Assembly (NCBI GenBank): GCA_947561715.1
Contig: OX387204.1
Span: 7,259,001-7,323,000, forward strand
Direction: 5' to 3'
Source: Ascidia mentula
Lineage: Eukaryota > Chordata > Ascidiacea > Phlebobranchia > Ascidiidae
DNA: 64,000 nt
Shown here: one piece after another, positions 1,795 through 60,667 of the stretch
How positions within the stretch are numbered: the stretch's first letter is position 1
Layout of the letters: each line of letters starts with the position of its first letter
Translations under genes and position numbers: made by a program
Notes under the pieces: generated by a model
What the model saw: the letters and a program-made list of their open reading frames with translations, nothing else
What the model was told of the DNA's origin: nothing
Databases searched by the model: none

Positions 1795-2366
1795 CTACAC
1801 AATGTCTTGTCCCTCGGTGCAGGCGTAATTAACATGTCCGCAATGACACGTTCCTTTCACCTTTTTTTTATCTTCTTTTCGTTCGTGATAGAAGCCAACG
1901 CATGATCTCCAGCAAGAAATCAGCACCAGCGCAACGAGCAATATTCCAGTCCCGACAAGAGTCCACGATTTGGTTACGCACGAGTGTTCGTCAATATCAG
2001 GTGACGCTACCACAAAAAGGTAGATCAAAGGGCCAAGCAGCATACCAAGGCCAATGAGCATAATGCCGTCGAATCGTGAAGCTGTGAAAGTAATTTCGAC
2101 TGTTTTAATTCCTGACAAACAGAGTTAATCATAAATGCAGGATACCACAAATGCCTGCCTATGTTACGCAATTTTATATTAAAAATGCGATGTTGTTTTG
2201 CAAAGTACACTACACTGTATGCGGGTTTTGGTAATGAAGCTTTTCACATAGAAGCTTTATCACGTAAAGAACACAAACAGCACTCACGCGCGCAGCAGAA
2301 AATGGCGTGACAACTGCACGAGCGACTGTGGAGCTCCTCATTGTCCATGAAGTTTTGCTGAGACAT
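1795..2366 (-). CDS. Two-exon small membrane protein, two TM segments, no PY motif (array gene 1)
   Basis: Unrecognised protein of 131 residues. Exon 1 is 2366-2288 (26 codons plus one base, MSQQNFMDNEEL..., ending CHAIFCCA) with donor GTGAGT. Exon 2 is 2111-1795, with acceptor CTCTGTTTGTCAG; the joined frame is open to TAG. Hydrophobic segments lie at about residues 43-62 (IMLIGLGMLLGPLIYLFVVA) and 76-95 (LVGTGILLVALVLISC). The tail is basic and then Cys-rich (KKKVKGTCHCGH). It has the phase-1 intron of the whole array but neither the PPxY nor the VATVS tail, so it is a divergent member or a founder-like relative. An alternative acceptor at 2101-2100 would change residues 27-31. Confidence 0.6.
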
Positions 2367-3671
2367 TTTTGCTAATCAGTATCTTACCAATCTGTTCAAA
2401 AAAGATTTAAAAACTAAAATTTTCTGATCATTGCCACACAACACCTATTTCATCTTTCGAATTAAAATAACAAATGCTGTTTTGTATCAAATCCTACAGT
2501 GATACAAACATTTTTCGCAAAGCATGTTGTAGAAACAAGGATTCCTACCTATATCACCTTTAGAATGTTTATTATCCGCGTCTAAGGTCTGTACTAAGCT
2601 TTTTATCATATTTGTACCAACACCACTTGTTGCTGCCTATCAAAATGTCAACAGTGATAAGTTGTTGTCGTGCATTAAATATATTTTGGCTCAAAGAAAT
2701 CGTTTGAAATAAAAACCCTTTTTTGTTTTTGCACGAACTGTATACATTGCGTATGTAGGCTGTAACGCTGGCGAAGTTCCTTTTGCTGAAAGCACACAAC
2801 TGTTTTATGCTTGAAACCAGTCGGACCCTTTGTGTCGCATCTATCTGCGTGGCATTATTGTTAACCGGACCAAGCAACTTCTATTTAGGTCTGACCCCGC
2901 CGAAAACTATTATATTACACAGAGTGTCCCTTTTTTTCCTAAGTGTGTTTGCTATGAAAGGATAGCATTTAGAAACCTTTAATCTTCGACCCTTAGCAGT
3001 GAAGCTACTCCCGATTTTAATTGTCAGTTCAGTTAAATTTCATGACCCGTTTTCGCACATAATGTGGGTAAAACGACTAAGAACTCACGCACAGCGCCAA
3101 AACTTTGTTTGCGTTGCATAATAAAACTGATCTCCCCACCAGCGTAGGTAGAAACTTTGTTCCTCGTGTTAGGAAAAACATAACAGTTAATCCATACAGT
3201 ATAAGAAGAAAAATGCAGCGATACATTTATTGTTTAAAAAAACACCTGGCGACAGCCTTGCATTAATATCCCTGTCAAGTCAAACGTACCACAAACTTTT
3301 GTCGGTCGTGATTATTTTGCAAAACATTGCTCCTTGGTTAATAATTATATCCAATTCGTGGTTCAGCCATTCGATCAAACAGTAGCACTTCTTAATAAAC
3401 GCGCGGCAATCTGGCGCTCTCTCTGCACCGTTGTGGTGCTGAGTTGACAACTAGCAAGTTTTTACATGTCTGGAAAACATGAACTATTGTAGCAAACGGA
3501 TGCTGTGTGCTTGCTCAGTGGGTGTGACGGACTCAATTTGCCCGGGGCCCTCTCGCATGGTTGCACACAAATATTTGAAGGGTGCTTGCCCCGCCCCCTT
3601 GAACGCCATGACATCCTGGACACTCTATATTGTGGGCGTCCAATAAGGGTCATAGTTCGCAAAAAGAACAC
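2367..3671. other. Intergenic, no gene seen
   Basis: Short overlapping open frames (for example 2572-2877 minus) have no splice context or motif. The stretch 3520-3620 is unusually G+C-rich for this window. Otherwise nothing is recognisable. Confidence 0.4.
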
Positions 3672-3790
3672 GTTGCTTATTTAACCAACATGTTGCTTTC
3701 TAGACAACGTGTTATATTTGCGCCAAAAAGCCAAAATTTACTAGAAGATGTTATTTTCCCTAAATAAGCAACATGTTGGTTTTATGACCA
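3672..3790. repeat. Short inverted repeat around an AACATGTT core
   Basis: GCTTATTTAACCAACATGTTG near 3674 is mirrored by AAATAAGCAACATGTTGGTT near 3764, giving a hairpin of about 100 bp. A half-copy (TTTAACCAACATGTTGCTAAG) sits at 44397 beside the truncated MGNC gene. It may be a small MITE; no target duplication was identified. Confidence 0.5.
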
Positions 3791-3893
3791 TTGTGTTGAT
3801 TCAGACGAATTCTAACCCCTTTGGCCGCACATGGAATGCTGTCCTGTTTTACGGCATTTGGGCAAAACATATTTCAAAGGTCGGACTTTTTAA

Positions 3894-5009
3894 TTACTTT
3901 CGAACTCCCTGAGACCTTGTGTCAACGTTGTGGTTTCCAGCTGCGGAACAAGTTTTATATGAAGGCGACGATGCCTGCGGCAGGCGTAAAGCCTTTTCGT
4001 ATGACGGAGGTTTGTCCACTGATTGCCCAGCGTGTGTCGGCACAATGCAAAAATCTCTTCTTGAACAGTTTGGTCGGCGGGGAAGGACATTGTCTTCTGA
4101 CGTATCGGAATCGTCTTCATGATTTCTGGTGTCTTTTATCCATCTTCGCAGGGCGTAGATATACAAGAGCAAGCACACAACGCCTACAGACCCTGTGGTC
4201 ATTTGGGCGGGGTAGTTGGTGGTGATGGCCGCGGTCATGAAACCAGTGACGGTAAATACTAACAGCACCCGCGGTTGAAAAAGGGTTCGCCTCCAAATTC
4301 TCCTTTCTGCAACAAGAAAATTTATCACGTACAAATCGATGCATTTTCAGTTATATTGTATATCATATAATATGCGTCTTTCCGCGAATACAATGGCATT
4401 TGACTGAATCTATCTACACGATTATTTACGTTTCCTTTTTATGCGGAATGTTGTAAGGTGAACAGTTGTTAATTGGTTCTATACTTCATCAAATGTTTCG
4501 TTGGGAACATCACAGAGGCGCAAACATTGTTCACTCACCGAACCATGTTTGAACATCAACGGAAAAAATATCAAAATGGGGTACATGGTATGTTCGGCAA
4601 TAAAACAACATACATGCGATAAAAGGTCTAGCTATCAAAAAACGCGATTAACAATTAAGTTTATGGCAGAAATGGGAGGAGAATCTGTATATGTAATAAT
4701 GCCAAATATGACATGTGATTAAGTTGTCCTATATTGTTGCTTAGGAAATATTTTTACAGTAGAGGTAATAGTGCGAATGATGCACGAAGTTCTTCCACAA
4801 AAGAATACGACTGAGATAAAAGGATGACGTTTGTAATGTTTCCACTTCACGCAAGATATAATTACCTACACTACGTCATTTCACGCTTTGCTGACCAATA
4901 AATGTTTTATCACTAATCGTTATTGAACAGTCAGCACTCCAACAACTTGAAAATCAGTCAACTTTGCAATAAAAGTCAACTTACCGCAAAAATTCTTTAT
5001 TGTTGCCAT
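3894..5009 (-). CDS. Two-exon small membrane protein with a PPSY motif (array gene 2)
   Basis: Unrecognised protein of 145 residues. Exon 1 is 5009-4985 (MATIKNFC plus one base; donor GTAAGT). Exon 2 is 4306-3894, with acceptor TTTTCTTGTTGCAG. A basic stretch (RRIWRR) precedes hydrophobic segments at about residues 21-38 and 48-61. An acidic linker (HEDDSDTSED) leads to PPSYEKA at residues 108-114. PPxY motifs bind WW domains, so the C-terminus is probably cytosolic and may recruit a WW-domain partner such as a Nedd4-type ligase. The 678 bp intron holds no other gene. It belongs to the same family as the next genes by intron phase, layout and tail. Confidence 0.68.
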
Positions 5010-5262: not shown

Positions 5263-5296
5263 TATATATATATATATACATATATATATTTATATA
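5263..5296. repeat. TA-rich microsatellite
   Basis: Alternating TA dinucleotides with a few interruptions, in the spacer upstream of array gene 2. Confidence 0.9.
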
Positions 5297-5804: not shown

Positions 5805-6655
5805 TCACGACGAACTGGATGGAACGTGCGGCATGTTAATGCTCCGGTCATAACTCGGGGGATCCACCTGTATCTCCTCGTATGCCGGCGGAGGTACCTC
5901 CACCAGACCCGGCAATGCATGTCTGTGCTGGCCTGGTGTGAAGGCAATGCTCTCATAAGCGGGCGCCTCGTCACTGTATCTTCGGGACGATGAAACCGCT
6001 TCGTTTGCAGGAAAACACCGGGCACAGCACGAGGGGCATTTTCTTCTCGAGCCGCAGCAGAAAAAAGTTACGACGGCAAACGTGAGTGTGGCGATGAAAA
6101 TGGCAAGAAACGCGACGGCCAGATTTGTTTGCCCGGACAGCCAACCAGTGAGCATTCCAGGTAGCATGACAGCCAGTAGGTACAGAGAAATCACGCGAAG
6201 ATTTCGTACATACTGTGGCGCTGTGATGAAGATGTAAAAGAGTTTGTCACAAACGATCGGACAATATATGCTTGTGTTGAGACGTTGGTATCATTGAGAA
6301 ACAAAATAGGTTTACGTTTTATATGAATCAGTAAAAAGGGTTATTTGTCAAGGCAAGTGATCTACTGTACAGAACAAGTTACAGTAGTAGCGAAATTTAA
6401 GCGAAGGCGCCATAACGTAACAAATCGAATGGCTCTGTGTCGAAAAGCAGAATTTATCTTACTGTAGCAAATAGCAAAGTAGACTGATTGTTCAAGGGCT
6501 AAAATAGTGAACTGAGCGTTGGCTATGTAACATATTCTGCTGTTATGTCTAATACTTGCTCAAGATTAAATTTAACGTGTAGTCTGTTACTCACTGCGTC
6601 TTCTGCTACAACGTCGGGTTTCCCTTCTTGTCCGCCGATCGTGCTGGGAAGGCAT
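5805..6655 (-). CDS. Two-exon Cys-rich membrane protein with PPAY and PPSY motifs (array gene 3)
   Basis: Unrecognised protein of 158 residues, the longest of the array. Exon 1 (6655-6595) encodes an Arg-rich head, MPSQHDRRTRRETRRCSRRR, then donor GTGAGT. Exon 2 (6220-5805) follows acceptor CATCTTCATCACAG. Hydrophobic segments lie at about residues 30-46 and 53-74, followed by a Cys cluster (FFCCGS..KCPSCCARC, residues 73-89) that suggests palmitoylation or metal binding. The tail has EAPAYES, PPPAYEE (residues 130-136) and DPPSYDR (140-145). The Cys cluster after the membrane segment plus PPxY repeats recalls WBP1/Shisa-type adaptors in layout, but no direct homology is claimed. Confidence 0.7.
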
Positions 6656-7382: not shown

Positions 7383-7867
7383 TTACGAGGATTCTGGCGA
7401 CGCAGTGTGTGGTGTGTACGGTGGAGGTGGCGGTTCTATGTATCCCGGCAGCAGCTGGTCGCGGTTGTTCCTCATCACTTCATAGTATGACGGAGGGGGA
7501 TCCAAACTTTCCTCTGTGCTCTCTGCATTTTCCTCGCCGTTTTGCGTTCTGCATGGGTTTGTAATACAGCGGTAGACCTCCTGAACGATCTGGTATATGG
7601 CATATAATATGTAGTAGAGCAAAAGCAAGCAGAGGTACACGGCAAAGAATGGTATCGCTACCGCGTAAACGCAGCAAGTCACTAGTTTTTCCACAAATGT
7701 CTGACATGTTTCGCCTGTCCGGGCTGAAATATAAAGATTTTATTTAAGATTCAAACAAACTTGTATTGTTGAGAAATAATCATCACTCTTATGTCTATTG
7801 TGCAGTGAGATAAAAAATGAACACGAAGTTTATTTAATCGCAAACCTGTTCTTTGACTGGAAGGCAT
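7383..7867 (-). CDS. Two-exon membrane protein with PPSY and PPPPPY motifs (array gene 4)
   Basis: Unrecognised protein of 120 residues. Exon 1 is 7867-7846 (MPSSQRT plus one base; donor GTTTGC). Exon 2 is 7723-7383, with acceptor ATCTTTATATTTCAG. A long hydrophobic stretch spans about residues 21-52 (VTCCVYAVAIPFFAVYL onward), enough for one long or two short membrane passes. After a CITNPC segment and a Glu-rich linker come PPPSYYEVMR (residues 83-92) and EPPPPPY (104-110). The pattern PPxY-x-EVMR then LPGY-x-EPPPPY is shared with array gene 5, so these two are close paralogues. A possible alternative first exon lies at 8441-8426. Confidence 0.72.
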
Positions 7868-9147: not shown

Positions 9148-9703
9148 CTATGGCACGTATGGTGGTGGCGGTTCACAGTAACCAGGCAACGACCGATCGT
9201 GACCATGTCGCATCACTTCTGCGTAGGGAGGCGGTTGGACGTGGTGCTGATGTCCTTGCTGACTACCACCCTGCTGTATGATATCAGCAGTGTCGGTGCA
9301 CTCAGTGTTGTACTGTCGTTCCGATCCAAAGCATATTTGTATAACGAGCATACTTAGGTAGTACAGAAACAACACAGGAAACAACACGATCATGAATGGT
9401 AGCACTAATATGATGTTGCAACAGGTCGTGGTTATATCACTGCTCCTGTCTGCAAAAAACAAGGTGTTTATTACCAAAATATGATTATTCAGAAGAAACA
9501 GTGCATATGGGCTATGCAGTGTTTGTGTTCTATCTTTAAGCATGTAGTCACATTTTAGGTCTGACACGTAAGTACGTAACATTATACAATATTAACGATT
9601 CGGGTTGTTCATAGGTGCGATACACTATATCGCACGAAAGACATTTGTCTGAAATGAAGTCTCAGCAATAAAAGAACTTACTGTTAATCCTCGCGGTTGC
9701 CAT
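9148..9703 (-). CDS. Two-exon membrane protein with two PPPY motifs (array gene 5)
   Basis: Unrecognised protein of 107 residues. Exon 1 is 9703-9682 (MATARIN plus one base; donor GTAAGT). Exon 2 is 9449-9148, with acceptor CTTGTTTTTTGCAG. A Cys pair (TTTCCN) leads into a strongly hydrophobic stretch at about residues 20-47 (ILVLPFMIVLFPVLFLYYL). A Gln/His-rich linker precedes QPPPYAEVMR (79-88) and the C-terminal EPPPPYVP (100-107). Two PPPY motifs spaced about 20 residues apart are a typical WW-domain ligand arrangement. The gene straddles the left border of a 2.8 kb tandem duplication: the copy at 12.2 kb retains exon 1 and the membrane segment but not the PPPY tail. Confidence 0.74.
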
Positions 9704-12151
9704 TTTGTAGCGTTTATATCCCTTCGTCTAGTCATACAAGTTTTTGAAACAAGTGTCCTGTCCTTTTGATATCGGTGACGGTCAGTTTTTCTGGCTGTTA
9801 CGGAATGCTTTCAGATTAGTTACAAATCCATGATTTTATGCATCTGAAATATTCAGAGTCAAACGAGAAATTTCACTACACACAATGCTTTGGCAATACT
9901 CATTGTTAATTCAGAGTTGTATTTACTGTGTCAGAGCAAGCTGAGGCCAGCAACTAGCTGAACTTTGAGTCTAGATAAGGTACGATCAACCGCTGCCTTA
10001 CACAAACATAAACCTGTTTGCGTAATGCCGCGGGACGAATTTAAGAGCACACACCCACACAAGTTCACGTCGATAATAATTAACGTTTTTTTGAATTCGG
10101 ATCATTTTTGTCGGCAAAACAATTGTTTAAGGTTTGGTGAATACGTGGCCCTATGTGCCCACGTCACCCACAGCCAATAAAAATGATATTTGGATTTTGC
10201 GCAAAAATTCCAATTTGAACCCTTGTTTTTTGTAAAAATGTTAATGAGATAATATTTCCATTTGCCCCCCCCATCTACACGAAGATTTTGCTGTGTCCGA
10301 TTCTCGCTGGTAAACAAACACAGGCTATCTTGGAAATAAAATAGGTTTAGTCCTTCTTGGTGTATGCTTTATTGTTGCCAAGCGTGTGCATACGTGTCAT
10401 CTATAATCAGTTTGGTGTAAACCATCGCAATTTGCATTTTTCAAGCACAAACCAACATATCTAACGAAACTAAATTTCCGGAATTGTGCACAGGCTGCAT
10501 ATACTCAACCAATATGACCAGAAATAACAGTTGGATAAATAATGTTTAGCCTTATTATGTGATTATATGGACAAAAACAAGAACGGGGAAAGACTGATAA
10601 AACAGGAATTCATGTCCAGCAATAATGTCACTCTACACTATATACAAGCCCTAACTCTCGACATCAATAACTTGCCCTTTAGCTAACCGTGGCCACACCG
10701 TCACTAAAGTGAATGGGCTTCTGAATAACCTCCACACTATTCTGTTGGGGTTCGGGATTTTGAACGACTTCGGCTTGCTGAGATGGTTTGTCGTTGTCGT
10801 CGTTTGGACTGTAGCAGAGGTTCATAAATCTGCACGTCACGTAGAAACAGTAGCATGGGGTGCACCAGAAAGCACAACACATGTGCATAATCATTATGTC
10901 TGGTAAAATAATAGTTGTGTTAGTTTCACTTGTGTTCACGTTAGTTAAAGCGCGACTATTGCTACGATCTGTTTGAGGACGATATGTTAGTTGTGCAATA
11001 GAGAAAACTGACCAAAGAAAATTTAAACACACTTAGTATATAATATGGTCACAATTAGGACCGTCATCATATAAAAGCCACTCTCCTCAGGTCCCAAGTG
11101 GTAATACTGAAAAGTTCATAGTGATAAAAAAACAATTAAGTAACCAAACCATTTCATTACATTATCTATGTAGGGAACCGATTCACTCGAGACAGCCAAG
11201 ACTGCAATTATCTATCACGGTGACAGAATATTATAGAAGAAGGTAATAGTGACCAAAACTGTATCCTTGGTTTGCACTCACCTTCGACTTCATCCCTCGA
11301 TGTCATGATGAAATTTCTCAAAACAAATTAATGCTAAACTGTGCAAGAAATGTGTTGCTGTTAGGAGCAAAGTGCTGGAGCGATATTGTGTTAAAGTTTA
11401 TGACGATGCAATAATATTCTGGTACTTAACTTTCCTGGGGGCAGAAGCACGAAAACATGCTTGCGCAGGACTTAGCACTACGCTTCCTATAGTAATTTCC
11501 GTTCTCGCAACCTCGTGCAGATTATTGTTCGAGAAACAACCTAAGAAGTCCTGCAATGTTGATTAAGTCAATTCGCGATACCTAGGTTTCCCTTCTCGGA
11601 TCACTTACAAGTTAGTGATGGTCTACAGCTGTTGCTTCTTTGTCCAAATTGGTCACACAATACCTTCCCAGAGTCAGTGGGTTTTTTTTCTCGCTGATGT
11701 GTTATCGTGTAACACAAGACCTTTCCATTATTAAAAACAACTCGTCTGTAGAGCAAAGAGCTAGTTTACAAACCAACGCTAATAAATGCTCGAAGTTAGT
11801 CGCCGCAGCTAACAGTGCAATTAGCAAAAAGGTTGATAAGATGAAATGTTATAAACATAAGGAGTCACGCGAATAGGAATAAAATTGAAACATCGAGACC
11901 AATATTATTTCTTGTAAAGCCTTTCTGGAAATAAATCTGTTCAATGTAATCACTTTTTACTTGTGGTTTCTTGGTGAAAACGTGATAACAATTTTTGTTT
12001 TGTACGGCTTCTGATAATGAGATAATGCCAAAATAAATATTGCCATTTGCCTGCGTTTTAATGTAAACCCTGATTGACATTTTGGTAAATAGCATATCTG
12101 AGAAATAGAATACGTTTTCTTGGAAGGTAAGCACTTCTTAACATCTCACTA
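9280..12151. repeat. Tandem segmental duplication, left copy
   Basis: About 2.87 kb, near-identical to 12229-14960. Matching landmarks are ATATCAGCAGTGTCGGTGC (9281 and 12230) and AACATCTCACTAA at the right ends. The left border cuts through exon 2 of array gene 5, so only the left copy has the complete gene. Confidence 0.92.
10679..11306 (-). CDS. Two-exon Cys-rich membrane protein, VATVS tail cut short (array gene 6)
   Basis: Unrecognised protein of 81 residues. Exon 1 is 11306-11282 (MTSRDEVE plus one base; donor GTGAGT). Exon 2 is 10899-10679, with acceptor ATTATTTTACCAG. The membrane segment is Cys- and aromatic-rich (CCAFWCTPCYCFYVTC, about residues 15-30), followed by an Asp/Asn-rich linker and a Gln-rich region. 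It ends SDGVATVS at TAA. Paralogues continue ERVQVIGVER; here the Glu codon reads TAA, and two bases are missing a little further on, so the last ten residues are lost. This is the first gene of the VATVS-tailed subfamily in the array. Truncation may or may not abolish function. Confidence 0.68.
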
Positions 12152-12192
12152 AATATACTAAATATATGCACCGGGCAGTGAAAAAATATACC

Positions 12193-12653
12193 CTAAAAAT
12201 ATAGGGTACAGCAAAAAATAGCCGCTATGATATCAGCAGTGTCGGTGCACTCAGTGTTGTACTGTCGTTCCGATTCAAAGCATATTTGTATAACGAGCAT
12301 ACTTAGGTAGCACAGAAACAACACAGGAAACAACACGATCATGAATGGTAGCACGAATATGATGTTGCAACAGGTCGTGGCTATATCACTGCTCCTGTCT
12401 GCAAAATACAAGGTGTTTATTACCAAAATATGAGTATTCAAAGGAAACAATGCATATGGGCTATGCAGTGTTTGTGTTCTATCTTTAAGTTGTCACATTT
12501 TAGGTCTGACACGTAAGTACGCAACATTATACAGTATTAACGATTCGGGTTGTTCATAGGTGCTATACACTATATCGCACGAAAGACATTTGTCTGAAAT
12601 GAGTTCAAGTCTTAACAATAAAAGAACATACTGTAAATCCTCGCGGTTTCCAT
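12193..12653 (-). pseudogene. Duplicate of array gene 5, PY tail lost
   Basis: Exon 1 (12653-12632, METARIY plus one base; donor GTATGT) and the start of exon 2 (12398 downward) match array gene 5 almost base for base through the Cys pair and hydrophobic segment. The duplication border replaces the sequence after DTADII with an unrelated tail (AAIFCCTLYF). Both PPPY motifs are absent, so any WW-domain binding would be lost. The reading frame stays open for 75 residues, so a short membrane peptide could still be made, but I regard it as a truncated copy. Confidence 0.7.
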
Positions 12654-14960
12654 TTTGTAGCGTTTATATCCCTTCGTCTAGTCATACAAGTTTTTGAAAC
12701 AAGTGTCCTGTCCTTTTGATATCGGTGACGGTCAGTTTTTCTGGCTGAGTTGTATTTACTGTGTCAGAGCAAACTGAGGCCAGCAACTAGCTGAACTTTG
12801 AGTCTAGATAAGGTAAGATCAACCGCTGCCTTACACAAACATAAACCTGTTTGCGTAATGCCGTGGGACGAATTTAAGAGCACACACCCACACAAGTTCA
12901 CGTCGATAATAATTAACGTTTTTTTGAATTCGGATCATTTTTGTCGGTAAAACAATTGTTTAAGGTTTGGTGAATACGTGGCCCTATGTGCCCACGTCAC
13001 TCACAGCCAATATAAATGAAATTTGAATTTTGCGTAAAAATTCCAATTTGGCCCCTTGTTTTTGTAAAAATATTATTGAGACAATGTCAAAAATAATATT
13101 TCCATTTTCCCCCCCTTCACACGGTGCAAGATTTTGCTGTGTCCGATTCTTGCTGGTAAATAAACACAGGCCATCTTGAAAATAAAATAGGTTTAGGGTT
13201 AGCCCTTCTTGATGTATGCTTTATTGTTTCGAGCAAAACGTGTCATCCATAATCAGCTCGGTGTAAACCATCGCAATTTACATTTTTCAAGCACAAACCA
13301 ACATATCTAACGAAACTAAATTTCCGGAATTGTGCACAGGCTGCATATACTCAACCAATTTGGCTAGAAATAAAAGTTGGAAAAATAATGTTTAGCCTTA
13401 TCCTGTGATTATATGGACAAAAACAAGAACGAGGAAAGACTGGTAAAACAGGAATTCATGTCCAGCAATAATGTCACTCTACACTATATACAAGCCCTAA
13501 CTCTCGACGTCAATAACTTGCCCTTTAGCTAACCGTGGCTACACCGTCACTGAAGTGAATGGTCTTTTGAACGACTTCGGCTTGCTGAGATGGTTCGTCG
13601 TTGTCGTCGTTTGGACTGGAGCAGTATTTCCCAATTCTGTACACCACGTAGAGAAGGTACAAGGGAGTGAGCAAGAAAAAAAAACAGATGTGGCACATCA
13701 CGATTCCTGGTAAAATAATAGTTGTGTTATTTGCACATGTGTTCACGTTAGTTAAAGCGCGACTATTGCTACGATCTGCTTGAGGACGATATGTTAGTTG
13801 TGCAATAGAGAAAACTGACCAAAGAAAGTTTAAACACACTTAGTATATAATATGGTCACAATTAGGACCGTCATCATATAAAAGCCACTCTCCTCAGGTC
13901 CCAAGTGGTAATACTGAAAAAGTCATAGTGATATAAAAACAATTAAGTAACCAAACCATTTCATTACATTATCTATGTAGGGAACCGATTCACTCGAGAC
14001 AGCCAAGACTGCAATTATCTATCACGGTGACAGAATATTATAGAAGAAGGTAATAGTGACCAAAACTGTATCCTTGGTTTGCACTCACCTTCAACTTCAT
14101 CCTTCGATGTCATGATGAAATTTCTCAAAACAAATTAATGCTAAACTGTGCAAGAAATGTGTTGCTGTTAGGAGCAAAGTGCTGGAGCGATATTGTGTTA
14201 AAGTTTATGACGATGCAATAATATTCTGGTACTTAACTTTCCTGGGGGCAGAAGCACGAAAACATGCTTGCGCAGGACTTAGCACTACGCTTCCTATAGT
14301 AATTTCCGTTCTCGCAACCTTGTGCAGATTATTGTTCGAGAAACAACCTAAGAAGTCCTGCAATGTTGATTAAGTCAATTGGCGATACCTAGGTTTCCCT
14401 TCTCGGATCACTTACAAGTTAGTGATGGGCTACAGCTGTTGCTTCTTTGTGTAAGGTTGGTCACACAATACCTTCCCAGAGTCAGTGGGGTTTTTTCTCG
14501 ATGATGTGTTATCGTGTAACACAAGACCTTTCCATTATTAAAAACAACTCGTCTGTAGAGCAAAGAGCTAGTTTACAAACCAACGCTAATAAATGCTCGA
14601 AGTTAGTCGCCGCAGCTAACAGCGCAATTAGCAAATAAGTTGACAAGATGAAATGTTATAAGCATAAGGAGTCACGCGAATAGGAATAAAATTGAAACAT
14701 CGAGACCAATATTATTGCTTGTAAAGCCTTTCTGGAAATAAATCTGTTCAATGTAAGCACTTTTTACTTGTGGTTTCTTGGTGAAAACGTGATAACAATT
14801 TTTGTTTTGTACGACTTCTGCTAAGCAGATAATGCCAAAATAAATATTGCCATTTGCCTGCGTTATAATGTATACCCCGATTGGCATTTTGGTAAATAGT
14901 ATATCTGAGAAATAGAATACGTTTTCTTGGAAGGTAAGCGCTTCTTAACATCTCACTAAC
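12229..14960. repeat. Tandem segmental duplication, right copy
   Basis: Copy of 9280-12151, shorter mainly because a stretch near 12745 is missing. The 77 bp between the copies contains ACCCTAAAAATATAGGGT, a short palindrome. Differences are few, so the duplication is recent compared with the age of the family. Confidence 0.92.
13525..14113 (-). CDS. Duplicate of array gene 6 with a divergent membrane segment
   Basis: Unrecognised protein of 68 residues. Exon 1 is 14113-14089 (MTSKDEVE plus one base; donor GTGAGT). Exon 2 is 13706-13525, with acceptor ATTATTTTACCAG. The membrane segment reads CHICFFFLLTPLYLLYVVYRI, clearly different from CCAFWCTPCYCFYVTC in the left copy, although flanking DNA is almost identical. 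The Gln-rich linker is also shorter. It ends at VATVS with the same TAA and the same two-base loss, so the truncated tail predates the duplication. The local divergence of the membrane segment suggests gene conversion from another paralogue or selection on that part. Confidence 0.68.
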
Positions 14961-15115: not shown

Positions 15116-15943
15116 TTAACGCTCGACACCAATGACTTGCACCCTTTCGCTAACAACAGCTACACCGTCTTGAACATGAACTTGCTTTGAAACAACAGCC
15201 ACAACTTCCTGTTGTCGGGGTCGGGGTTGGGGTTGGTACTGGGCCACTTGCTGCGACGGTCGAGAAGTATTTTTGTCGTCATTACCACAGCACTTGGACA
15301 CACATATGTACATCAAGTAGATAAGATAGAAGGGAAAGCATACAAGGCAGCATACGATGTGGCACGCGAGGGTTTCTAATAAACAAAAGCAGTTTGTGTT
15401 TTCTACTTGAGTTCACAATCACGACTATTTCTACAGCATGCCCGAAAGTTCAATTGGGGATTAGGGCCGTGGTCGAGGCCGTGCCCAACCTTTTATATGT
15501 GTTGCGGGCCAGTTTTGTAAGGAGAAAGATTTTGCGGGCCACTAAGGTTTTCAAAAAATCAAATACGAAACAATCCTTTGATTTTTTAAAACATCACAGT
15601 TTATACGTTATCATTTTGCAGATGTTTGCATTTTAACTATGTAAAGAACTGTTATATACGTATGTATTTAAAGTTCTGGCAATATTCCTAATGTACATTT
15701 AAACCTTACTCAAATAACAGTAAATTGACGCCAATTGAGATCCAAATCGTATAGAGTTTAAATTTTTAAAGCCGTATACAAATAATTCAGTAAAAACTTA
15801 ATTTTCTGTATAGGAAGACGCAGGTACGCAATAACCTATCCTGGCCACATAATGCTAATCATCAAAAGGTGTAAATATATTTGTGGCCATTACTGCAATA
15901 TTGCTTGCTACTACTCACCATTGTCATCATCATCGGATCCCAT
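15116..15943 (-). CDS. Two-exon Cys-rich membrane protein with full VATVS tail (array gene 7)
   Basis: Unrecognised protein of 94 residues. Exon 1 is 15943-15919 (MGSDDDDN plus one base; donor GTGAGT). Exon 2 is 15375-15116, with acceptor GCTTTTGTTTATTAG. The membrane segment (ACHIVCCLVCFPFYLIYLMY, about residues 12-31) is followed by VSKCCGNDD, a Pro/Gln-rich linker (QPQPRPRQQ) and the tail VAVVSKQVHVQDGVAVVSERVQVIGVER. The alternating Val/Ile tail looks like a beta-strand repeat and is the hallmark of this subfamily. MGS at the N-terminus is compatible with myristoylation, and the Cys cluster with palmitoylation. The intron includes a hAT-like repeat at about 15465-15550. Confidence 0.75.
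15465..15550. mobile_element. hAT-like DNA transposon end (non-autonomous)
   Basis: GGCCGTGCCCAACCTTTTAT followed by TGCGGGCCAG and a second TTTTGCGGGCCACTAAGG resembles the end sequences of hAT-type MITEs. It lies inside the intron of array gene 7. No transposase is present. Confidence 0.45.
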
Positions 15944-16944: not shown

Positions 16945-17571
16945 TTAACGCCCGGCTCCAATAACCTGGACCCTTTCGCTGACAGTAGCTACATCGCCAA
17001 GAATTTGAACTTGCTTGTGAACAATAGCCAGCACGAAACTCGGTTCGGATTCGGGTCGTTCCGGCGGCGTGGCTTCGTCGTCGTCTCCGTTGCAGCAGCA
17101 TAGCATACAGCATATATATATCCAGTAAATAAAGTAGAAAGGGAAGCAGAAAAGACAACATACGATGTGACACGCGACGGTTCCTAACAAAAAAGAGCGG
17201 AATAAGTTTAAACATGACTATTCCTACCATTGCCATATCTGGATAGTTGGGTACAAAGTCAGTTCCATCATATATTAGATATGCAATATTTCGCGTAAAT
17301 TTGGTAACAACATGTTGATCAGCACCGCCATCACGCTCCATGGACCAATGGAAGCGGAGCCCATGATCGATAGTTCACAGAAAAAAAGTTGGAAAAAGTT
17401 ATAAGACAGTAGCTGATTTTCTGTGTGGAAAACTACTTATGTATGAAAGACCATGGACGCAACTATCTTTCACGGTAGCAGAGTGTTGGTCATTTAAAAG
17501 TGTCAACGTAACGTTTAAGTGACCAAAACTGTCATCTAGTACTTACCTGACCCGTTGTCTTCAGATTCCAT
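16945..17571 (-). CDS. Two-exon Cys-rich membrane protein with VATVS tail (array gene 8)
   Basis: Unrecognised protein of 87 residues. Exon 1 is 17571-17547 (MESEDNGS plus one base; donor GTAAGT). Exon 2 is 17183-16945, with acceptor CTCTTTTTTGTTAG. The membrane segment (ACHIVCCLFCFPFYFIYWIY, about residues 12-31) runs into ICCMLCCCNGDDDE, giving eight Cys within about 25 residues, then a Pro/Glu linker (PPERPESEP). The tail is VLAIVHKQVQILGDVATVSERVQVIGAGR. The closest relatives are gene 7 and the gene at 59.3 kb (same CHI-CCLFC-PFY pattern). It is the last gene of the left half of the array; the right half resumes at 39.4 kb. Confidence 0.75.
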
Positions 17572-39435: not shown

Positions 39436-39961
39436 TTATTCTTGGATACCAATAACAGTGACCCTTTCCGTAACGGTGGCCACTCCTTCACGTATGTGTA
39501 CTTGCTTTTGCACCGCAACGAGGACGCGCTGGTTTTTAGGTGGTGCTTGCCGTTGTTGTGGAACTACTGCATCAAACTGCTGGTGCGATTGTAGATGGGC
39601 TCTTTGTTCTGTTTGGTCGTTTTCGTCGGCCCGGCAACCTTTTGCACAGTGGTAGATGCAAAAGCACGGACAGAAGAAAATGCAGCAAAGTAGTTGAAGA
39701 CAATCTGAAAACAAAGATTGTGTGAGTAACTTATTGCATTGCGTTGCGGCATCGTTGAATTTTGCCAAAACAATCGACTAGCAATGCAGAATCATTGGTG
39801 TATTCACCATACAAAAAGTCTCGAACTAATGTGAAATGTAGTTTCTGGATATTGTATGCTATATATTCCTTGTCTGTTTAAAATATGACATATTGCATTA
39901 ACTGAAATATATGTAATGTGCTAAAAGTGCATTGTTTACCGCTTGTGTCGTTGGACCCCAT
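39436..39961 (-). CDS. Two-exon Cys-rich membrane protein with VATVT tail (array gene 9)
   Basis: Unrecognised protein of 96 residues. Exon 1 is 39961-39940 (MGSNDTS plus one base; donor GTAAAC). Exon 2 is 39704-39436, with acceptor AATCTTTGTTTTCAG. The membrane segment is LLCCIFFCPCFCIYHC (about residues 12-27), with six Cys, then an acidic and Gln-rich linker and the tail VLVAVQKQVHIREGVATVTERVTVIGIQE. The FFCPC core defines the right-half subgroup of the array. MGSN suggests N-myristoylation. The gene and its flanks are paralogous to the damaged loci at 46.1 and 52.7 kb, and this is the best-preserved copy of that set. Confidence 0.77.
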
Positions 39962-41092: not shown

Positions 41093-41637
41093 CTATTCTT
41101 GGACACCAATAATAGTGACCTGTTCCGAAACGGTGGCCACCCCTTCACTTATGTGTACTTCCTTGCGCACCGCAACGAGGACGTTCTGACTTTGTGCTTG
41201 TGCTTGCCGTTGATGTGGAACTACTGCGTTAACTTGCCGCTGGGTTGTTTTTTCTTCTTCATCGTCGTCGTCGTCGTTACAGCAACAGCAGTAGATGAAA
41301 TAGCATGGGCAGAAGAAGAGACAACAAAACAAATGGAGGCAGGCTAAAACACAACGGTGATTTAAGTAATATATTACATGGCGTAGAAGAGTGGTTCTTA
41401 AACTGTGGTACGCGTAGCACATACCACAAACCACAAGTGGTAAGTTCGTGAAATTGATGCTAACTAAGTTGCAATTTAAGTCTGTTTTACGAATAAAACA
41501 TTTGTATGAATCACAGGTAATGATGTGATACAAAATAACTTGCTGAAATAACTAGATTTGTTTACATCCAACTACCATGTAGTTTACCAAAACAGAAAAA
41601 ATGACATCGCTTAAATACCGTTGCTGTTGGATCCCAT
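41093..41637 (-). CDS. Two-exon Cys-rich membrane protein with VATVS tail (array gene 10)
   Basis: Unrecognised protein of 89 residues. Exon 1 is 41637-41619 (MGSNSN plus one base; donor GTATTT). Exon 2 is 41343-41093, with acceptor CGTTGTGTTTTAG. The membrane segment LFCCLFFCPCYFIYCCCC (about residues 11-28) carries eight Cys, followed by an acidic run (NDDDDDEEE), a Gln-rich linker and VLVAVRKEVHISEGVATVSEQVTIIGVQE. The acidic run directly after the Cys cluster is the most extreme in the family. A hAT-like end lies in its 275 bp intron. Confidence 0.77.
41385..41450. mobile_element. hAT-like transposon end in intron of array gene 10
   Basis: GTGGTTCTTAAACTGTGGTA then CGCGTAGCACATACCAC and CAAGTGGTA is the typical start of hAT-type non-autonomous elements. 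No transposase is present. Confidence 0.55.
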
Positions 41638-46114: not shown

Positions 46115-46642
46115 TTATTGCTGCTCATCAATAATATGGTTACTGATATGTAATATACGTGAGTTGGTCCAATCTATCTGGGATAACAATAACAGTGCCC
46201 GTTCCGACACAGTGGCCACTCCACCACGTACGTGTACTTGCTTTGGCATCGCAACGAGAACGCGCTGGTTTTTAAGTGGTACTTGTCGTTGTTGCAGAGC
46301 CACTGCCTGAAACTGGCGCGACTGTGACCGGGCTCTTAATTGTTTGTTGACGGCAACTCTGAAGCCCTTAGCAGAGTAGTAGATGCAAAGGCACGGGCAG
46401 AAGAAAAGCCAGCAAATCAAATCAAGACAATCTGAAAAATTGTCTGAATAACATATTGCATTGCGTTTCGGAATCGTAGGATTTTGCCAAAAATATTGAC
46501 TAGCAATGCAGATTCATTGGTATATTCACCATGAAAAAAGTCTTTGCCTGTTTAACCCATAAAATGTGGCATATTGCAATAAATGAAATATATGCAATGT
46601 GCAAAAATTACGTTGTTTACCGCTTGCGGCGTTGGATCCCAT
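46115..46642 (-). pseudogene. Array gene 11, FFCPC type, tail frame shifted
   Basis: Exon 1 (46642-46621, MGSNAAS plus one base; donor GTAAAC) and exon 2 (from 46431, acceptor CAATTTTTCAG) are intact through the membrane segment (DLICWLFFCPCLCIYY) and the start of the tail (VLVAMPKQVHVRGGVATVSER). Near 46198 one base is missing compared with the paralogue at 52.79 kb, so the final VTVI segment is replaced by about 28 unrelated residues. A membrane protein may still be made, but the conserved tail end is lost. Confidence 0.72.
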
Positions 46643-48313: not shown

Positions 48314-48707
48314 TTATTCTTGCACGCCAATAACAGTAACCTTTTGCGAAACAGTCGCGACACCATCATCGTTTATTTGTACTCGTTTCTCCACTGCAAC
48401 GAACACCTTTTTATCATCTGTGGCTCTTTGAGCCTGATGGGAAACACGTAAAGACTGTTGTGGTTGTTCCTCTGCCTTTGTATCGCAAGTGTACTTCAGG
48501 CACTGGTAGAGGCAATAGCACGGACAGAAGAAAAGGCAACAAAAACATTCGATGCAGCCTAAACGCAGCAATTGTTATTTTGAGTGATGTTAATCATGGA
48601 CTTGTTTACAAGCAGCACTTAAGTTATAGCTGATATTCTCTTATTAGTAATTAACAATGCACGCATACCGCAACCTTACCACAGTCGTTGTCATCTTCGT
48701 TCGCCAT
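48314..48707 (-). CDS. Two-exon Cys-rich membrane protein with VATVS tail (array gene 12)
   Basis: Unrecognised protein of 90 residues. Exon 1 is 48707-48680 (MANEDDNDC plus one base; donor GTAAGG). Exon 2 is 48558-48314, with acceptor AATTGCTGCGTTTAG. The membrane segment is IECFCCLFFCPCYCLYQC (about residues 12-29), then a Gln/Ser linker and VFVAVEKRVQINDDGVATVSQKVTVIGVQE. The first exon lacks the Gly at position 2 seen in the MGSN genes, so myristoylation is not expected here; membrane attachment would rely on the hydrophobic Cys segment. It lies about 1.6 kb from, and is divergently transcribed to, the MGNC gene at 50.3 kb. Confidence 0.78.
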
Positions 48708-49679: not shown

Positions 49680-49870
49680 TGATACTGGTGAAGTAGTGCG
49701 CACTCAAATTAGAGTAGGGCTAGAGTCAAAGTTGGTGAAGTTGCTTGGCTTGGCCAAGATAAGTTACTTAATAAAGTTGCTTGGCCAAGAGAAGTTACTT
49801 GTTGAAGTGCGTGTACTGTATGGTGCAAGCACTTTGTCGAGTGAGGTTAGGTGAAGTCCCTCACCAGGTG
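49680..49870. repeat. Short tandem repeats upstream of the first MGNC gene
   Basis: Two units of a roughly 31 bp repeat (AAGTTGCTTGGCCAAGATAA, GTTACTTAATGAAG) lie in a block that continues as the tail of the zinc-finger-like pseudogene at 63.4 kb. The matching block at 55.28 kb has three units and the one at 63.42 kb has one. Confidence 0.75.
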
Positions 49871-50313
49871 GACTAAGGTTTAGTTTTCCAAACTAAATGG
49901 AAATATTATCTAAAGTCATAATAAACAGCTATTTGCCATAATAAACCAAACATTTCCATCTCCCAATATCTTGTAGAAGACAATTTGCCACAAAACAAAA
50001 AGATTATAATCGCACAATTCATAAAACAAAGAGAATATATCCATAATCTTCATGAACAAACTTACCAAGACAAAAAGCACAGGGTATTTGCATTGCATTT
50101 GTACGCAATAATGAATGCATTATGACGATTTCCTTGATCCCAGCTTGGAAAACGTAACAATCCAAGGGTCACAATCGTTTCCTTGCAACTAATGCTAAAC
50201 AAAGGGCAAATTTGGGCTGTTTTGAAAATGGAATTTTTGAGAGTGTGGTCAGTTGTACAGAGAGGACGTATATTATTTGCGGGGAGTTTTAAGACAATTT
50301 ATTCGAGAAAACG

Positions 50314-52674: not shown

Positions 52675-53003
52675 TCATACAACTTTATATATAGGTAAGT
52701 ATTGGCGACGTTTATTGCTGCTCATCAATAATATGGTTACTGATACGTACGTGAGTTGGTCCAATCTATCTGGGATAACAATAACAGTGACCCGTTCCGA
52801 CACGGTGGCCACTTCACCACGTACATGTACTTGCTTTGGCATCGCAACGAGAACGCGCTGGTTTTTAAGTGGTGCTTGTCGTTGTTGCAGAGCCACTGCC
52901 TGAAACTGGCGCGACTGTGACCGGGATCTTTGTTTGTTGACGGCATCTCTAAAGCCCTTTGTACAGTAGTAGATGCAAAGGCACGGGCAGAAGAAAAGCC
53001 GCA
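52675..53003 (-). pseudogene. Array gene 13, FFCPC type, head lost at a duplication junction
   Basis: The membrane core (LFFCPCLCIYYCTKG), linker and tail (VLVAMPKQVHVRGEVATVSE, RVTVIVIP) match array gene 11. At 53003 the sequence switches to the outer end of the gypsy fragment seen at 47.33 kb, so the start of exon 2, its acceptor, the intron and exon 1 are all gone. The usual stop after VTVIG is also absent, so the frame runs on about 30 residues. The open frame continues into the gypsy-derived sequence, but this is best seen as a broken copy. Confidence 0.75.
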
Positions 53004-53075
53004 GGTCAGAGGCTTGCAGGTCATCTTTGGGGACTCTCAATACGCTGATCTTGGGCCTGTGCATTAAACCGCCTG
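53004..53075 (-). mobile_element. End of Ty3/gypsy fragment at the duplication junction
   Basis: GCTTGCAGGTCATCTTTGGG through CGCTGATCTTGGG is the same as 47328-47372. Relative to the left copy about 0.9 kb is missing here. Confidence 0.7.
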
Positions 53076-53876: not shown

Positions 53877-54271
53877 TTATTCTTGCACGCCAATAACAGT
53901 AACCTTTTGCGAAACAGTCGCGACACCATCATCGTTTATTTGTACTCGTTTCTCCACTGCAACGAACACCTTTTTATCATCTGTGGCTCTTTGAGCCTGA
54001 TGGGAAACACGTAAAGACTGTTGTGGTTGTTCCTCTGCCTTTGTATCGCAAGTGTACTTCAGGCACTGGTAGAGGCAATAGCAAGGACAGAAGAAAAGGC
54101 AACAAAAACATTCGATGCAGCCTAAACGCAGCAATTGTTATTTTGAGTGATGTTAATCATGGACTTGTTTACAAGCAGCACTTAAGTATTAAGCTGATAT
54201 TCTCTTATTAGTAATTAACAATGTACGCATACCGCAACCTTACCACAGTCGTTGTCATCTTCGTCCGCCAT
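53877..54271 (-). CDS. Two-exon Cys-rich membrane protein, near-identical duplicate of array gene 12
   Basis: Protein of 90 residues. Exon 1 is 54271-54244 (MADEDDNDC plus one base; donor GTAAGG). Exon 2 is 54121-53877 with the same acceptor (AATTGCTGCGTTTAG). It differs from array gene 12 in one residue (Asp for Asn at position 3). The membrane segment IECFCCLFFCPCYCLYQC and the tail VATVSQKVTVIGVQE are the same. The intact duplicate shows that the 5.6 kb duplication raised the copy number of this gene without damage, in contrast to the neighbouring FFCPC gene 13. Divergent to MGNC copy 2. Confidence 0.78.
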
Positions 54272-55275: not shown

Positions 55276-55375
55276 TGGTGAAGTTGCTTGGCCAAGATAA
55301 GTTACTTAATGAAGTTGCTTGGCCAAGATAAGTTACTTAATAAAGTTGCTTGGCCAAGAGAAGTTACTTGTTGAA
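55276..55375. repeat. Three-unit tandem repeat upstream of MGNC copy 2
   Basis: Three roughly 31 bp units (GAAGTTGCTTGGCCAAGATA, AGTTACTTAAT) where copy 1 has two. Unit-number change since the duplication is the simplest reading. Confidence 0.8.
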
Positions 55376-55882
55376 GTGCGTGTACTGTGTGGTGCAAGCA
55401 CTTTGTCGAGTGAGGTTAGGTGAAGTCCCTCACCAGGTGGACTAAGGTTTAGTTTTCCAAACTAAATGGAAATATTATCTAAAGTCATAATAAACAGCTA
55501 TTTGCCATAATAAACCAAACATTTCCATCTCCCAATATCTTGTAGAAGACAATTTGCCACAAAACAAAAAGATTATAATCGCACAATTCATAAAACAAAG
55601 AGAATATATCCATAATCTTCATGTACAAACTTACCAAGACAAAAAGCACAAGGTATTTGCATTGCATTTACACGCAATAATGAATGTATTATGACGATTT
55701 CCTTGATCCCAGCTAGGAAAACGTAACAATACACGCGTCACAATCGTTTCCTTGTAACTAATGCTATACAAAGGGCAAATTTGGGCTGTTTTGAAAATGG
55801 AATTTTTGAGAGTGTGGTCAGTTGTACAGAGAGGACGTATATTATTTGCGGCGAGTTTTAAGACAATTTATTCGAGAAAACG

Positions 55883-57612: not shown

Positions 57613-58327
57613 TTACTCATTCACGCTTAGAACAGTGACTCTTTGCGACACGGTAGCAACACCATCGTTTATGCGTACTTGTTTTTCCACCGCAATGATT
57701 ACCTTCTTGTCTTGTGGGGCTGCTTGTTGCTGATGCGGAACAACCGATAGTTGCTGATTACTTTGCGCTCTTTTTTCACTAACTTCGGAGTTAGCTTTCA
57801 AGCAATGGTAGATGCAGAAGCAGGGACAAAAGATGAGGCAACACAAACACGCGATGCAGTCTGAATACAAAAAAAATTGATTTAAGTTTTGTGAATTTAA
57901 TCTTTCAGATCTGGTTCCAAAGGAAAAAAAGTAACTGCCCTGTGTCTGGCCTGAGTTGCCAGTAATCCTAATTATATAAACACCAATAGCTGAGTTGGCT
58001 AATAGGTCTGAACAGTGAGGTGATCCTACTTTCTCAATGCAATGGCATAGAGCCCCACTATACGTAAATGTAAGGCCTCCTGGCAAGTTGTGCGCTTGCA
58101 AACCACAGTATCTTCGTCACAATATACCTCTTTAACCCCTGGACAGTCAATAGAGCGTTGGGTCTGTTTGGCCATCGGGTCGTGAGTAAAATCCTCACCG
58201 GGGCTTGATTTTGAAATCCTGCTAAGACTTATCGGGACAAAGTGCCGATCCAGATCGTCTGTAATGCCAATGAACTTAACAATAAACAACACAAACTTTT
58301 ACCGCAGTCGTTGTCGTTCGATGTCAT
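57613..58327 (-). CDS. Two-exon Cys-rich membrane protein with VATVS tail (array gene 15)
   Basis: Unrecognised protein of 90 residues. Exon 1 is 58327-58303 (MTSNDNDC plus one base; donor GTAAAA). Exon 2 is 57860-57613, with acceptor TTTTTTGTATTCAG. The membrane segment IACLCCLIFCPCFCIYHC (about residues 11-28) has seven Cys, followed by a Gln-rich linker (PHQQQAAPQ) and VIIAVEKQVRINDGVATVSQRVTVLSVNE. The exon-1 end NDC is shared with array gene 12, so the two are sister paralogues, this one outside the recent duplication. Its 442 bp intron contains part of the dispersed repeat described at 18 and 42.5 kb (GGCCTCCTGGCAAGTTGTGC). Confidence 0.77.
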
Positions 58328-59263
58328 GGTGAAGGGATTTCCCAAAGTAAATCTGAATTGCAATCTTAGAAATATACCTCAGCAAATCTTTCTCGAAGCA
58401 ATGTTTTATGTAAAGTACATTAGTCCTGAGAATAAATGGCATAAGCACTTGCCGAAACGTTTTAAACAACTAAAACATTTCAATATTTTCAGCAGTAGGG
58501 ACCATAGTCTCCTTATTCTCAGAATTATGAGTAAATCCGTAAATAGTGTTCCTAACCACATCTAGTCCTGTACGAAATTACTGCTTTCTCCACGGCAAAT
58601 ACTAGCTTTTCAGCTTTATTTTTCAACCGTGTACTGAGTTTAAACCCATGCCGTACCTACGCAGTTAGCAATACTCCGGCCTACACAGTTGGAAACGTAG
58701 TACGTAACCTGTGTGATTCAGTTGTAAATTTGTGATGATTTTTCGACCCCCGCACGATACAGGCGTTTAACATTTCCACCTAATCTAAAATCAACTGGTT
58801 AGTAAAACGCAGTATACTTGCTTTGTGAAAAGTGTCGCCAGAGTCTTGTATAATAGCATATAGTGATGCGGATTGTCATGCTGGGTAACTTCAACATAAT
58901 TTCGTGGAACGTAGCTACAATGAGGACTTGTTTTGGTTATGTTGCCAAAACCGTAGTGTTTATAAAGAGTTAGTTCGAACATTTATTTAAACTCTTTGCT
59001 TGATCTGCACTTATAGACGGCCAGTTAACTATTCTGCAGCACATTAATTATTCGTCACATTATTTTCATTACCCAAAGCAACAACACATGAGACAACACA
59101 TTAGTCGTAGTGCACTACAGGCACACAAAAAAACTAACATTGTACACTAAGTAATATTTCATTGGATAACGCACGCACAGCAAGTAATAACACATTTACA
59201 AAAACAAACAGTATTGTATTAGCAGCTGATCAGGCATCATGAATTCGTTACAATGGGAAAGGT
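58328..59263. other. Intergenic between array genes 15 and 16
   Basis: No gene is supported; short frames only. Confidence 0.4.
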
Positions 59264-59508
59264 CTAACGTTGGACTCCTATAACTTGGACCTTTTCGCTG
59301 ACTGTAGCTACGCCGTCATGGATGTGAATTTGCTTCTGGACAACAGCCACGACCGTTGGTTCAGGTTTGGGCTCTGATTTTTGATAGACGACGACTCTTT
59401 GAGGTGGTGGCGCATCTCCGGCATCCACGCAACACATTATACACTTGTACAACAAGTACGCCAAGTAGAAGGGTGTGCAGAAGAGGCAGCAAATGATGTG
59501 ACATGTCA
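59264..59508 (-). CDS. Cys-rich membrane protein with VATVS tail, second exon only (array gene 16)
   Basis: Exon 2 is 59508-59264, after acceptor CCTGTATGTTTTAG in the usual phase. It reads VTCHIICCLFCTPFYLAYLL for the membrane segment, then KCIMCCVDAGDAPPP and VVAVVQKQIHIHDGVATVSEKVQVIGVQR. The nearest relatives are array genes 7 and 8 at 15-17 kb, on the other side of the fossil-rich block, so the array predates those insertions. A first exon could not be settled: ATGGAATCGGATGGAGACTC at 60053 resembles the MESEDN start of gene 8 but is not followed by a phase-1 donor. The gene may therefore be incomplete. Confidence 0.62.
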
Positions 59509-59682
59509 CTAAAACATACAGGTCTAAATTTGTAACATGGCACCCATTGACGACATGGAGTTGCCAAGTTGCTATTGCCCGCTTTAGGCGTTTCTGGCAA
59601 CCCAATCATTCCACTATATATTTAAATCTATAGTTTTTGGTCTAATAGTTAAAACTTATTTGAAAGCTGTTTGAAAGTTTGA

Positions 59683-59740
59683 AAGCTGCAGACAGAAGGT
59701 CTCATCAGGGCAGCTGGACCTTAGAGGTCGAAACAACATT
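59683..59740. ncRNA. Rearranged hammerhead ribozyme remnant
   Basis: The minus strand has AGCTGC-C-CTGATGA-GACC followed at once by CTGTCTGCAGCT, that is stem I and the catalytic core without the rest of stem II. The plus strand carries the missing half, GGACCTTAGAGGTCGAAAC. It looks like an inverted, partly deleted relative of the ribozyme at 61253-61312 and is unlikely to cleave. Confidence 0.5.
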
Positions 59741-60202
59741 TCCTTTTGATTATATTTCAGGAGTAAAACAGGTCGCCTAAGCGGGTGGGAATCTCCCAGT
59801 CTTATTTAACTTTTACATCGTTGTAGTGACACGAGCATAGCCGATAACTATTTTAGCGAAATAAGTAAGGCACTGTGGCAGAGAACTTTCCTCGGTAATG
59901 CTGTATTTTCGCGAGTGATGCAATACTGTCTGTCTCATTTCAAACTAAATTTTAGTACCTGCATTGGTGATGCACGACTACTTTTCGTTTAGTCTTCCCA
60001 CAGATTACATATGGAAAGTAAACAAAGCATATCGAGTCTCCATCCGATTCCATAATTGTTAGCATACGTACAAGCAAAAACCAGTATACGTTGTTTAGGG
60101 TTTTATAATTGTGGATAACATATTCTCATGCACATCATGTTCGTACTCAAAATACTATCTAATTTGAAATGAATATTATGTTTTTACGTCTTGACAGCAG
60201 TG
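59741..60202. other. Spacer downstream of array gene 17
   Basis: Contains the unsettled ATG (60053) discussed for gene 16. Nothing else is supported. Confidence 0.4.
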
Positions 60203-60667
60203 CTAGCGTATCTCAGCGATTTGAACCCGTTCGCTCACAGTAGCAACGCCATCATTCACATAGACTTCCTTTTGAACAGCAATGAACACTTTATTTTGAG
60301 GCGGGGCGACAGATTGCTTGTAAACCACGACTTGTCCCGGCTGGACCACTTGTTCTTCTTTGGTGCAATGTTGGTAGATTTTGTAAATGGCCCAAATAAG
60401 CATGAAAGGCAAAGCAATGACAAAGAGGAAGAGATAGCAGAGACACAGCACCAAATCTGGGTTAAAACACATGGATAATTAAATGCCTTGAATTGTCCGA
60501 AAGAAAGAATCCAATAAGCTTTTATTTAACAGATATAGAGCAAAAAAAAATTCCACAGACCATGACTAAATTGCACCCACCGCAGTAAATTGCACAATTG
60601 CACCCACTGCAAAGAATAAACATTGAATAAACGACTTACCAAATTCATCGTCGTCTGATGATCCCAT
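60203..60667 (-). CDS. Two-exon membrane protein with VATVS tail (array gene 17)
   Basis: Unrecognised protein of 93 residues. Exon 1 is 60667-60640 (MGSSDDDEF plus one base; donor GTAAGT). Exon 2 is 60456-60203, with acceptor GTTTTAACCCAG. The membrane segment is longer and less Cys-rich than in its relatives (LVLCLCYLFLFVIALPFMLI, about residues 11-30, then WAIYKIY). After a short Gln/Val linker (VVQPGQVVVYKQ) comes VFIAVQKEVYVNDGVATVSERVQIAEIR. Gly2 and Ser3 fit a myristoylation signal. It is the last recognisable array gene before the right edge. An inverted-repeat element begins about 100 bp upstream of its start and may overlap its promoter. Confidence 0.77.

Follow-up and report, generated by a model that had tools for sequence, protein, structure and literature searches.

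The locus considered here raises the question of whether a run of small, repeated loci on one strand of an ascidian chromosome consists of real genes, whether these form one family, and what their products might do. The stretch analysed, referred to as the window, is 64,000 nucleotides long (bases 7,259,001-7,323,000 of OX387204.1) and is carried by chromosome 8 of Ascidia mentula, a chromosome reported in the genome note for this species (PMC11109543). For the mitochondrial COX1 of this genome, translation with AGA/AGG as glycine, the ascidian code, looked best by eye among tables 4, 5 and 13. An earlier note on this DNA had described an array of about 17 two-exon genes for Cys-rich small membrane proteins, ending at position 60667. 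Judged from its sequence, the gene cluster is real, apparently undescribed and lineage-specific, and it is bigger and more mixed than first noted. About 20 copies of one orphan family (group A) lie next to PPxY-bearing neighbours, namely five genes at the left end (group B) and a right-hand group (group C), in an invertebrate chordate.

Gene structure and extent of the cluster

Thirteen family A second exons were found in the window, all on the minus strand (Table 1). The gene layout is a short polar exon 1 and a phase-1 intron, followed by an exon 2 that encodes a hydrophobic Cys-rich segment and, after a linker that varies between copies, a tail that is conserved. The tail consensus is roughly V.VAV.K.V.I.DGVATVSERV.VIG, with a core around DGVATVSE. 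In the 12 A proteins measured, the first 45 residues contain 3-10 Cys and the KD19 maximum is 1.71-2.92 in every copy, as for a small protein with a membrane segment.

The exon 1 models have 6-9 codons, many of them for S, N, D, E or G, and end in phase 1 with a G ahead of the GT donor. A short polar exon 1 of this kind lies within 600 nt of 11 of the 13 second exons, against a background of 3.2 % in 5000 random 570-nt plus-strand stretches (binomial P 2.8e-15, an optimistic value because the rule was composed after the genes had been seen). When the donor phase was varied as a control, phase 0 gave no match for any of the 13 and phase 2 gave four. The two copies with no exon 1 are A52 and A59; the duplicated block shared by A59 and A67 (59725-57804 and 67439-65511, 90.6 % identical) ends before reaching exon 1 of A67.

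Minus-strand repeats of the kind described in the earlier note were seen again: a phase-1 intron separates a very small first exon from a hydrophobic second exon that is usually rich in Cys. The exon pairs that the note gave as examples (39940 to 39704 and 60640 to 60456) are present exactly and join in frame. The note's statement that first exons are codon-consistent in every intact case was too broad, as A52 (52.7 kb) and A59 (59.3 kb) lack exon 1 and others are irregular. Phase, splice sites and codon-level constraint nevertheless give good support to the exon pairs as real two-exon genes, and the coding status of the array genes is likewise well supported. The alternative that these are pieces of one larger known gene was unsupported, as each intact copy runs from a start to a stop of its own and carries its own tail. 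N-myristoylation of the copies that start with MGS was considered and provisionally set aside, as several copies begin with MA, MT or ME.

The array continues beyond 60667 and extends to the right as far as about 111.6 kb in window coordinates (positions above 64,000 lie outside the window, to its right), for a total of about 110 kb. Beyond the window there are seven further A second exons, at about 67.0, 69.1, 80.5, 82.4, 83.1, 85.0 and 87.0 kb, and the third, mostly PPxY-bearing group C. Whole-genome searches for A listed at least 15 and at least 12 places (partly shared), and all of the places listed are inside the cluster. Duplicate blocks in the array are many and tandem, and differ in age. 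Two adjoining 2586-base units at 80231-85401, 99.9 % identical and bearing A copies, are possibly a very recent duplication or alternatively an assembly effect. Short tandem repeats with a 31-base unit were observed at 49748-50047 and 55286-55377, inside duplicated blocks of 5.6 kb.

Divergence between family A copies

The ratio of nonsynonymous to synonymous substitution rates (dN/dS) was calculated for 15 selected pairs out of the 120 that 16 A copies can form. It was 0.19-0.62 in eleven pairs, none of which contains A10, A13 or A85; one of the eleven includes A46 and two include A59, neither of which is an intact copy, and two rest on four or fewer changes. The ratio was 0.61-0.99 in the three pairs containing A13 or A85, and A60/A59 was saturated. 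The values for the eleven pairs argue that constraint dominates. This applies to family A overall, although some members are probably decaying or relaxed. For A41/A69, divergence is 10 % in exon 2, 42 % in the intron and 44 % in the 3' flank, and the corresponding figures for A39/A41 are 24, 46 and 48 %. In a wrong-frame control on eight pairs, the true frame was lowest in three (A41/A69, A59/A67 and A39/A41), and A48/A54 was uninformative, with too few changes. Among 12 A sequences, the tail has a mean pairwise amino-acid identity of 61 %, exon 1 and the membrane segment have 42 % each, and the linker has 23 %; in this alignment the tail is better conserved than the membrane segment and linker.

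A different pattern was found for A10 and A13, the copies in a tandem duplication of 2.8 kb. Across the intron, they align without gaps and show 8 differences in 382 bases, yet 30 of the 99 bases that encode the membrane segment differ, with 27 nonsynonymous and 3 synonymous changes (dN 0.44, dS 0.19). The divergent block starts at the exon 2 acceptor and stops where the membrane segment ends; in the linker, there is a 39-base gap that preserves the frame. Relative to the flanks, where 50 of 1005 bases differ (32 of the 50 in an upstream stretch that is probably misaligned through an indel), 27 changes in about 81.5 nonsynonymous sites are an excess (P 1.3e-13). The same comparison for synonymous sites gave P 0.053, and a direct test of dN against dS gave P 0.16. 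When the assembly was searched with the A13 segment, the best candidates were A13 and A10 only, and no other donor was found among them. Ten duplicate blocks were aligned, and the five others in which an annotated second exon was scored (A54, A67, A87, C99 and C101) lack a membrane-segment peak; in A87/A60, the peak is in exon 2, past the membrane segment. A10/A13 is a single case, and the tails are short in both copies.

The suggestion in the earlier note that the array is under diversifying pressure is mostly unsupported, given the eleven pairs, and retained in part, for the excess amino-acid change in the A10/A13 membrane segment. General diversifying selection was rejected for most pairs by dN/dS, and diversifying selection would be limited to one pair at most.

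Neighbouring genes and known small membrane proteins

The five B genes have hydrophobic second exons. Apart from that of B9, exon 1 is tentative in these genes or, in B5.8, unsettled. Ten C genes lie on the minus strand at 88-112 kb, each with two hydrophobic segments, and exon 1 is unsettled for most. A PPxY or LPxY motif follows the membrane segment in four of the five B genes (PPxY tails) and in seven of the ten C genes (PPxY). In 134 kb, open frames of 70 codons or more in which PPxY comes after a hydrophobic segment numbered 10 on the minus strand, 3 of these inside the window, against 1 on the plus strand. There were none in either reversed sequence or in 20 order-2 minus-strand simulations. 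Four relatives of the C-type PPxY genes were observed 0.6 Mb away on the plus strand of the same contig (6621729-6702582, i.e. 6.62-6.70 Mb).

The repeated loci of the earlier note are largely real but mixed. A single Cys-rich family of about 17 was rejected, as the loci at 1.8, 3.9, 5.8, 7.4 and 9.1 kb encode other proteins. B7 and B9, which are 40 % identical, were unmatched to A by hhalign, B3.9 had no other match in a search of the genome, and B5.8 had no close relative there, only a weak match (E 0.135) on another contig. The B genes have an A-like layout, but common ancestry with A is not demonstrable from these comparisons. A relic at 70639-71010 (70.9 kb, outside the window) has a membrane segment like that of family A, which is followed by a stop, by PPSY and, as judged by eye, by a tail resembling that of A; it may connect families A and B.

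Searches for relatives outside the cluster returned little. A Pfam scan of A, B and C proteins gave nothing above cut-off, and the best match in a sequence search of PDB was to rhodopsin (E 0.083). No homologue was found in the protein collection, whose ascidian coverage is unproven, using A48 (in a query with one residue wrong at the junction), the A alignment or a C-type protein. A viral origin was set aside after a single-sequence IMG/VR scan with the same A48 query gave no relative. None of the papers listed in our literature searches describes this cluster. Within the libraries and literature searched, whose coverage of ascidian proteins is unproven, the genes are undescribed, as had been claimed. 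Small membrane proteins are often overlooked in annotation, and this family is absent from the libraries searched. AlphaFold2 modelling of the A60 second exon (12 rows) gave a mean predicted local distance difference test score of 60 and one confident helix (residues 2-32).

Several known systems resemble parts of the cluster. Commissureless, PRRG4 and yeast Rcr1 are described as short membrane proteins with PY motifs through which other membrane proteins are controlled, partly via Nedd4-type ligases (PMC5578492). The B and C genes are like these in being small, with a membrane segment and then PPxY-type motifs. However, intact family A copies lack PPxY, there is no Gla domain, no sequence relation is shown, and where those proteins, as described there, have one membrane segment, B1.8, B5.8 and the C genes have two hydrophobic segments. 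Herpesvirus UL56, UL42 and U24 are also small membrane proteins, with cytosolic PPxY motifs that bind Nedd4-family ligases (PMC5849660); they are viral, and the likeness to small PPxY membrane proteins is by description only.

Some C-type proteins gave weak Pfam scores to the small membrane proteins TMEM51 (PF15345), TMEM252 (PF15664) and Melan-A (PF14991), with E values of 0.013 to 0.15, all under the curated cut-offs (one C-type protein scored 13.7 bits to TMEM51, whose cut-off is 25.5). TMEM51, TMEM252 and Melan-A have PPxY-like tails. Among the A copies, the highest Pfam score was to SPAR (PF22004), a small single-transmembrane protein, matched by 1 of 12 copies at 18.8 bits, below the cut-off of 27. 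IFITM proteins and dispanins, small membrane proteins with acylated cysteines, are encoded by two-exon genes that lie in tandem arrays, and in their small size, two exons, membrane segment and tandem arrangement the loci are similar. However, neither the IFITM/dispanin nor the CYSTM Pfam model matched any of 12 A proteins at E <= 1, and PPxY, where present in the cluster, comes after the membrane segment. In plant Cys-rich transmembrane proteins, the Cys-rich segment is C-terminal, whereas in family A it is near the N-terminus. These plant proteins are small and are described as pathogen-induced (PMC8049917).

Possible roles of the cluster

We tentatively favour the reading, with a probability of about 0.4, that A is a lineage-specific tandem family of tiny membrane proteins that act as membrane adaptors in Ascidia mentula. 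It is favoured because A shares the PY-protein-like build of B and C, and because the 70.9-kb relic combines an A-like segment with PPSY. Exon 1 supplies a polar N-terminus of 6-9 residues. Exon 2 adds a hydrophobic helix, in most copies Cys-rich, then the variable linker and the conserved tail, whose roughly 30 residues are predicted with low confidence to form a beta-hairpin. What we infer beyond gene structure and constraint is as follows. The N-terminus may face outward or into the lumen and the tail the cytosol, with the membrane-proximal cysteines perhaps S-acylated. The membrane segment would pair laterally with a partner membrane protein while the tail recruits a common cytosolic protein, and PPxY motifs of the B and C proteins may bind WW domains of Nedd4-type ligases, altering how the partner is sorted or turned over. 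New membrane segments on a near-constant tail would then arise by duplication. The cluster would offer a natural series for studying how a transmembrane helix picks its partner. A more far-reaching version, in which these are a new tunicate class of modular adaptors with a constant tail, a membrane segment swapped or driven after duplication and copy-specific partners, possibly for recognition or defence, appears unlikely. In that version, the common phase 1 of the A first exons could also let one of them be spliced onto the exon 2 of a neighbour; exon 1 of A60, for instance, would join exon 2 of A59 in frame.

Several results weigh against the adaptor reading. A60 and A87 are equally diverged in exon (9.8 %) and intron (9.9 %), exon 2 is more diverged than the intron in both A85 pairs, and the true frame was not lowest in the remaining four pairs of the wrong-frame control (A60/A87, A60/A85, A85/A87 and A10/A13). 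The hairpin comes from a low-confidence model, with two strands at residues 60-67 and 70-77 of A60 exon 2, and Foldseek found nothing in PDB for this model at E <= 0.001. PPxY is absent from the intact A copies (12 aligned proteins), and hhalign found no link between A and either B9 or B7, the two of the five B genes covered (probabilities of 1.7 and 3.6, respectively).

A serious alternative, whose chances likewise fall somewhat short of even, is an ordinary birth-and-death cluster in which the genes do encode small membrane proteins but share no adaptor role and have undergone no special diversification. The many tandem blocks of varied age and the decaying copies fit it, and the A10/A13 difference would be a short gene conversion, with the donor paralogue lost or on the other haplotype. 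Synonymous change being raised there too (dS 0.19), the weak contrast of dN with dS, and the uniqueness of the peak among the annotated blocks all suit conversion, but a donor was not found elsewhere among the best candidates in the assembly, and a layout and PPxY tails common to neighbours of dissimilar sequence count against it. The nonsynonymous excess in A10/A13, whose flank count takes in a probably misaligned stretch, together with orphan status and copy-number turnover, would instead suit a fast-evolving recognition or defence family with diversifying selection on the membrane-proximal part, along the lines suggested in the earlier note; the low dN/dS of the eleven pairs and the dependence on one short-tailed pair make this improbable. 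That the loci are mostly non-coding or dead gene-like repeats is very improbable. Motif rules framed post hoc, several visibly broken copies and transposon fragments inside the array point that way, but frames, splice sites and the tail motif are retained although synonymous sites are near saturation, and exon 1 matches far exceed background.

Table 1. Positions of the group A and group B loci in the window
Locus	Span	Strand	Exon 1	Exon 2	Remarks
A10	10679..11306	-	11306-11282	10899-10679	tail short
A13	13525..14113	-	14113-14089	13706-13525	tandem copy of A10, membrane segment different; tail short
A15	15116..15943	-	15943-15919	15375-15116	
A17	16945..17571	-	17571-17547	17183-16945	
A39	39436..39961	-	39961-39940	39704-39436	
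A41	41093..41637	-	41637-41619	41343-41093	
A46	46115..46642	-	46642-46621	46431-46115	tail end leaves family frame, probably decaying
A48	48314..48707	-	48707-48680	48558-48314	
A52	52675..53010	-			second-exon-like, no exon 1, start of membrane segment altered; probable relic
A54	53877..54271	-	54271-54244	54121-53877	recent copy of A48
A57	57613..58327	-	58327-58303	57860-57613	
A59	59264..59523	-			exon 2 alone
A60	60203..60667	-	60667-60640	60456-60203	only 3 Cys in first 45 residues
B1.8	1795..2366	-	2366-2288 (tentative)	2111-1795 (tentative)	phase 1; two hydrophobic segments, no PPxY
B3.9	3894..5009	-	5009-4985 (tentative, phase 1)	4306-3894 (acceptor by eye)	PPSY tail
B5.8	5805..6220	-	several candidates	acceptor 6220	two hydrophobic segments, PPAY/PPSY tail
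B7	7383..7867	-	7867-7846 (tentative, weak donor)	7723-7383 (by eye)	hydrophobic segment, PPSY/PPPY tail
B9	9148..9703	-	9703-9682	9449-9148	hydrophobic segment, PPPY tail
B12	12190..12653	-			copy of B9, tail lost; probable relic

Directly upstream of A60, at 60818-61282, two nested near-perfect inverted repeats with arms of 98 and 84 nt (96-97 % complementary) constitute a foldback element. Other sequences in the window include an open frame at 36221-37897 on the plus strand with RNase H-like, integrase zinc-binding and integrase core domains, which is part of a long terminal repeat (LTR) retrotransposon. Transposon fragments were also seen at 20217-20567 and 20867-21277 on the plus strand, in separate adjacent frames that match an integrase core (weakly, below cut-off) and a chromodomain, and a fragment of a papain-family protease frame lies at 32348-32647, also on the plus strand.

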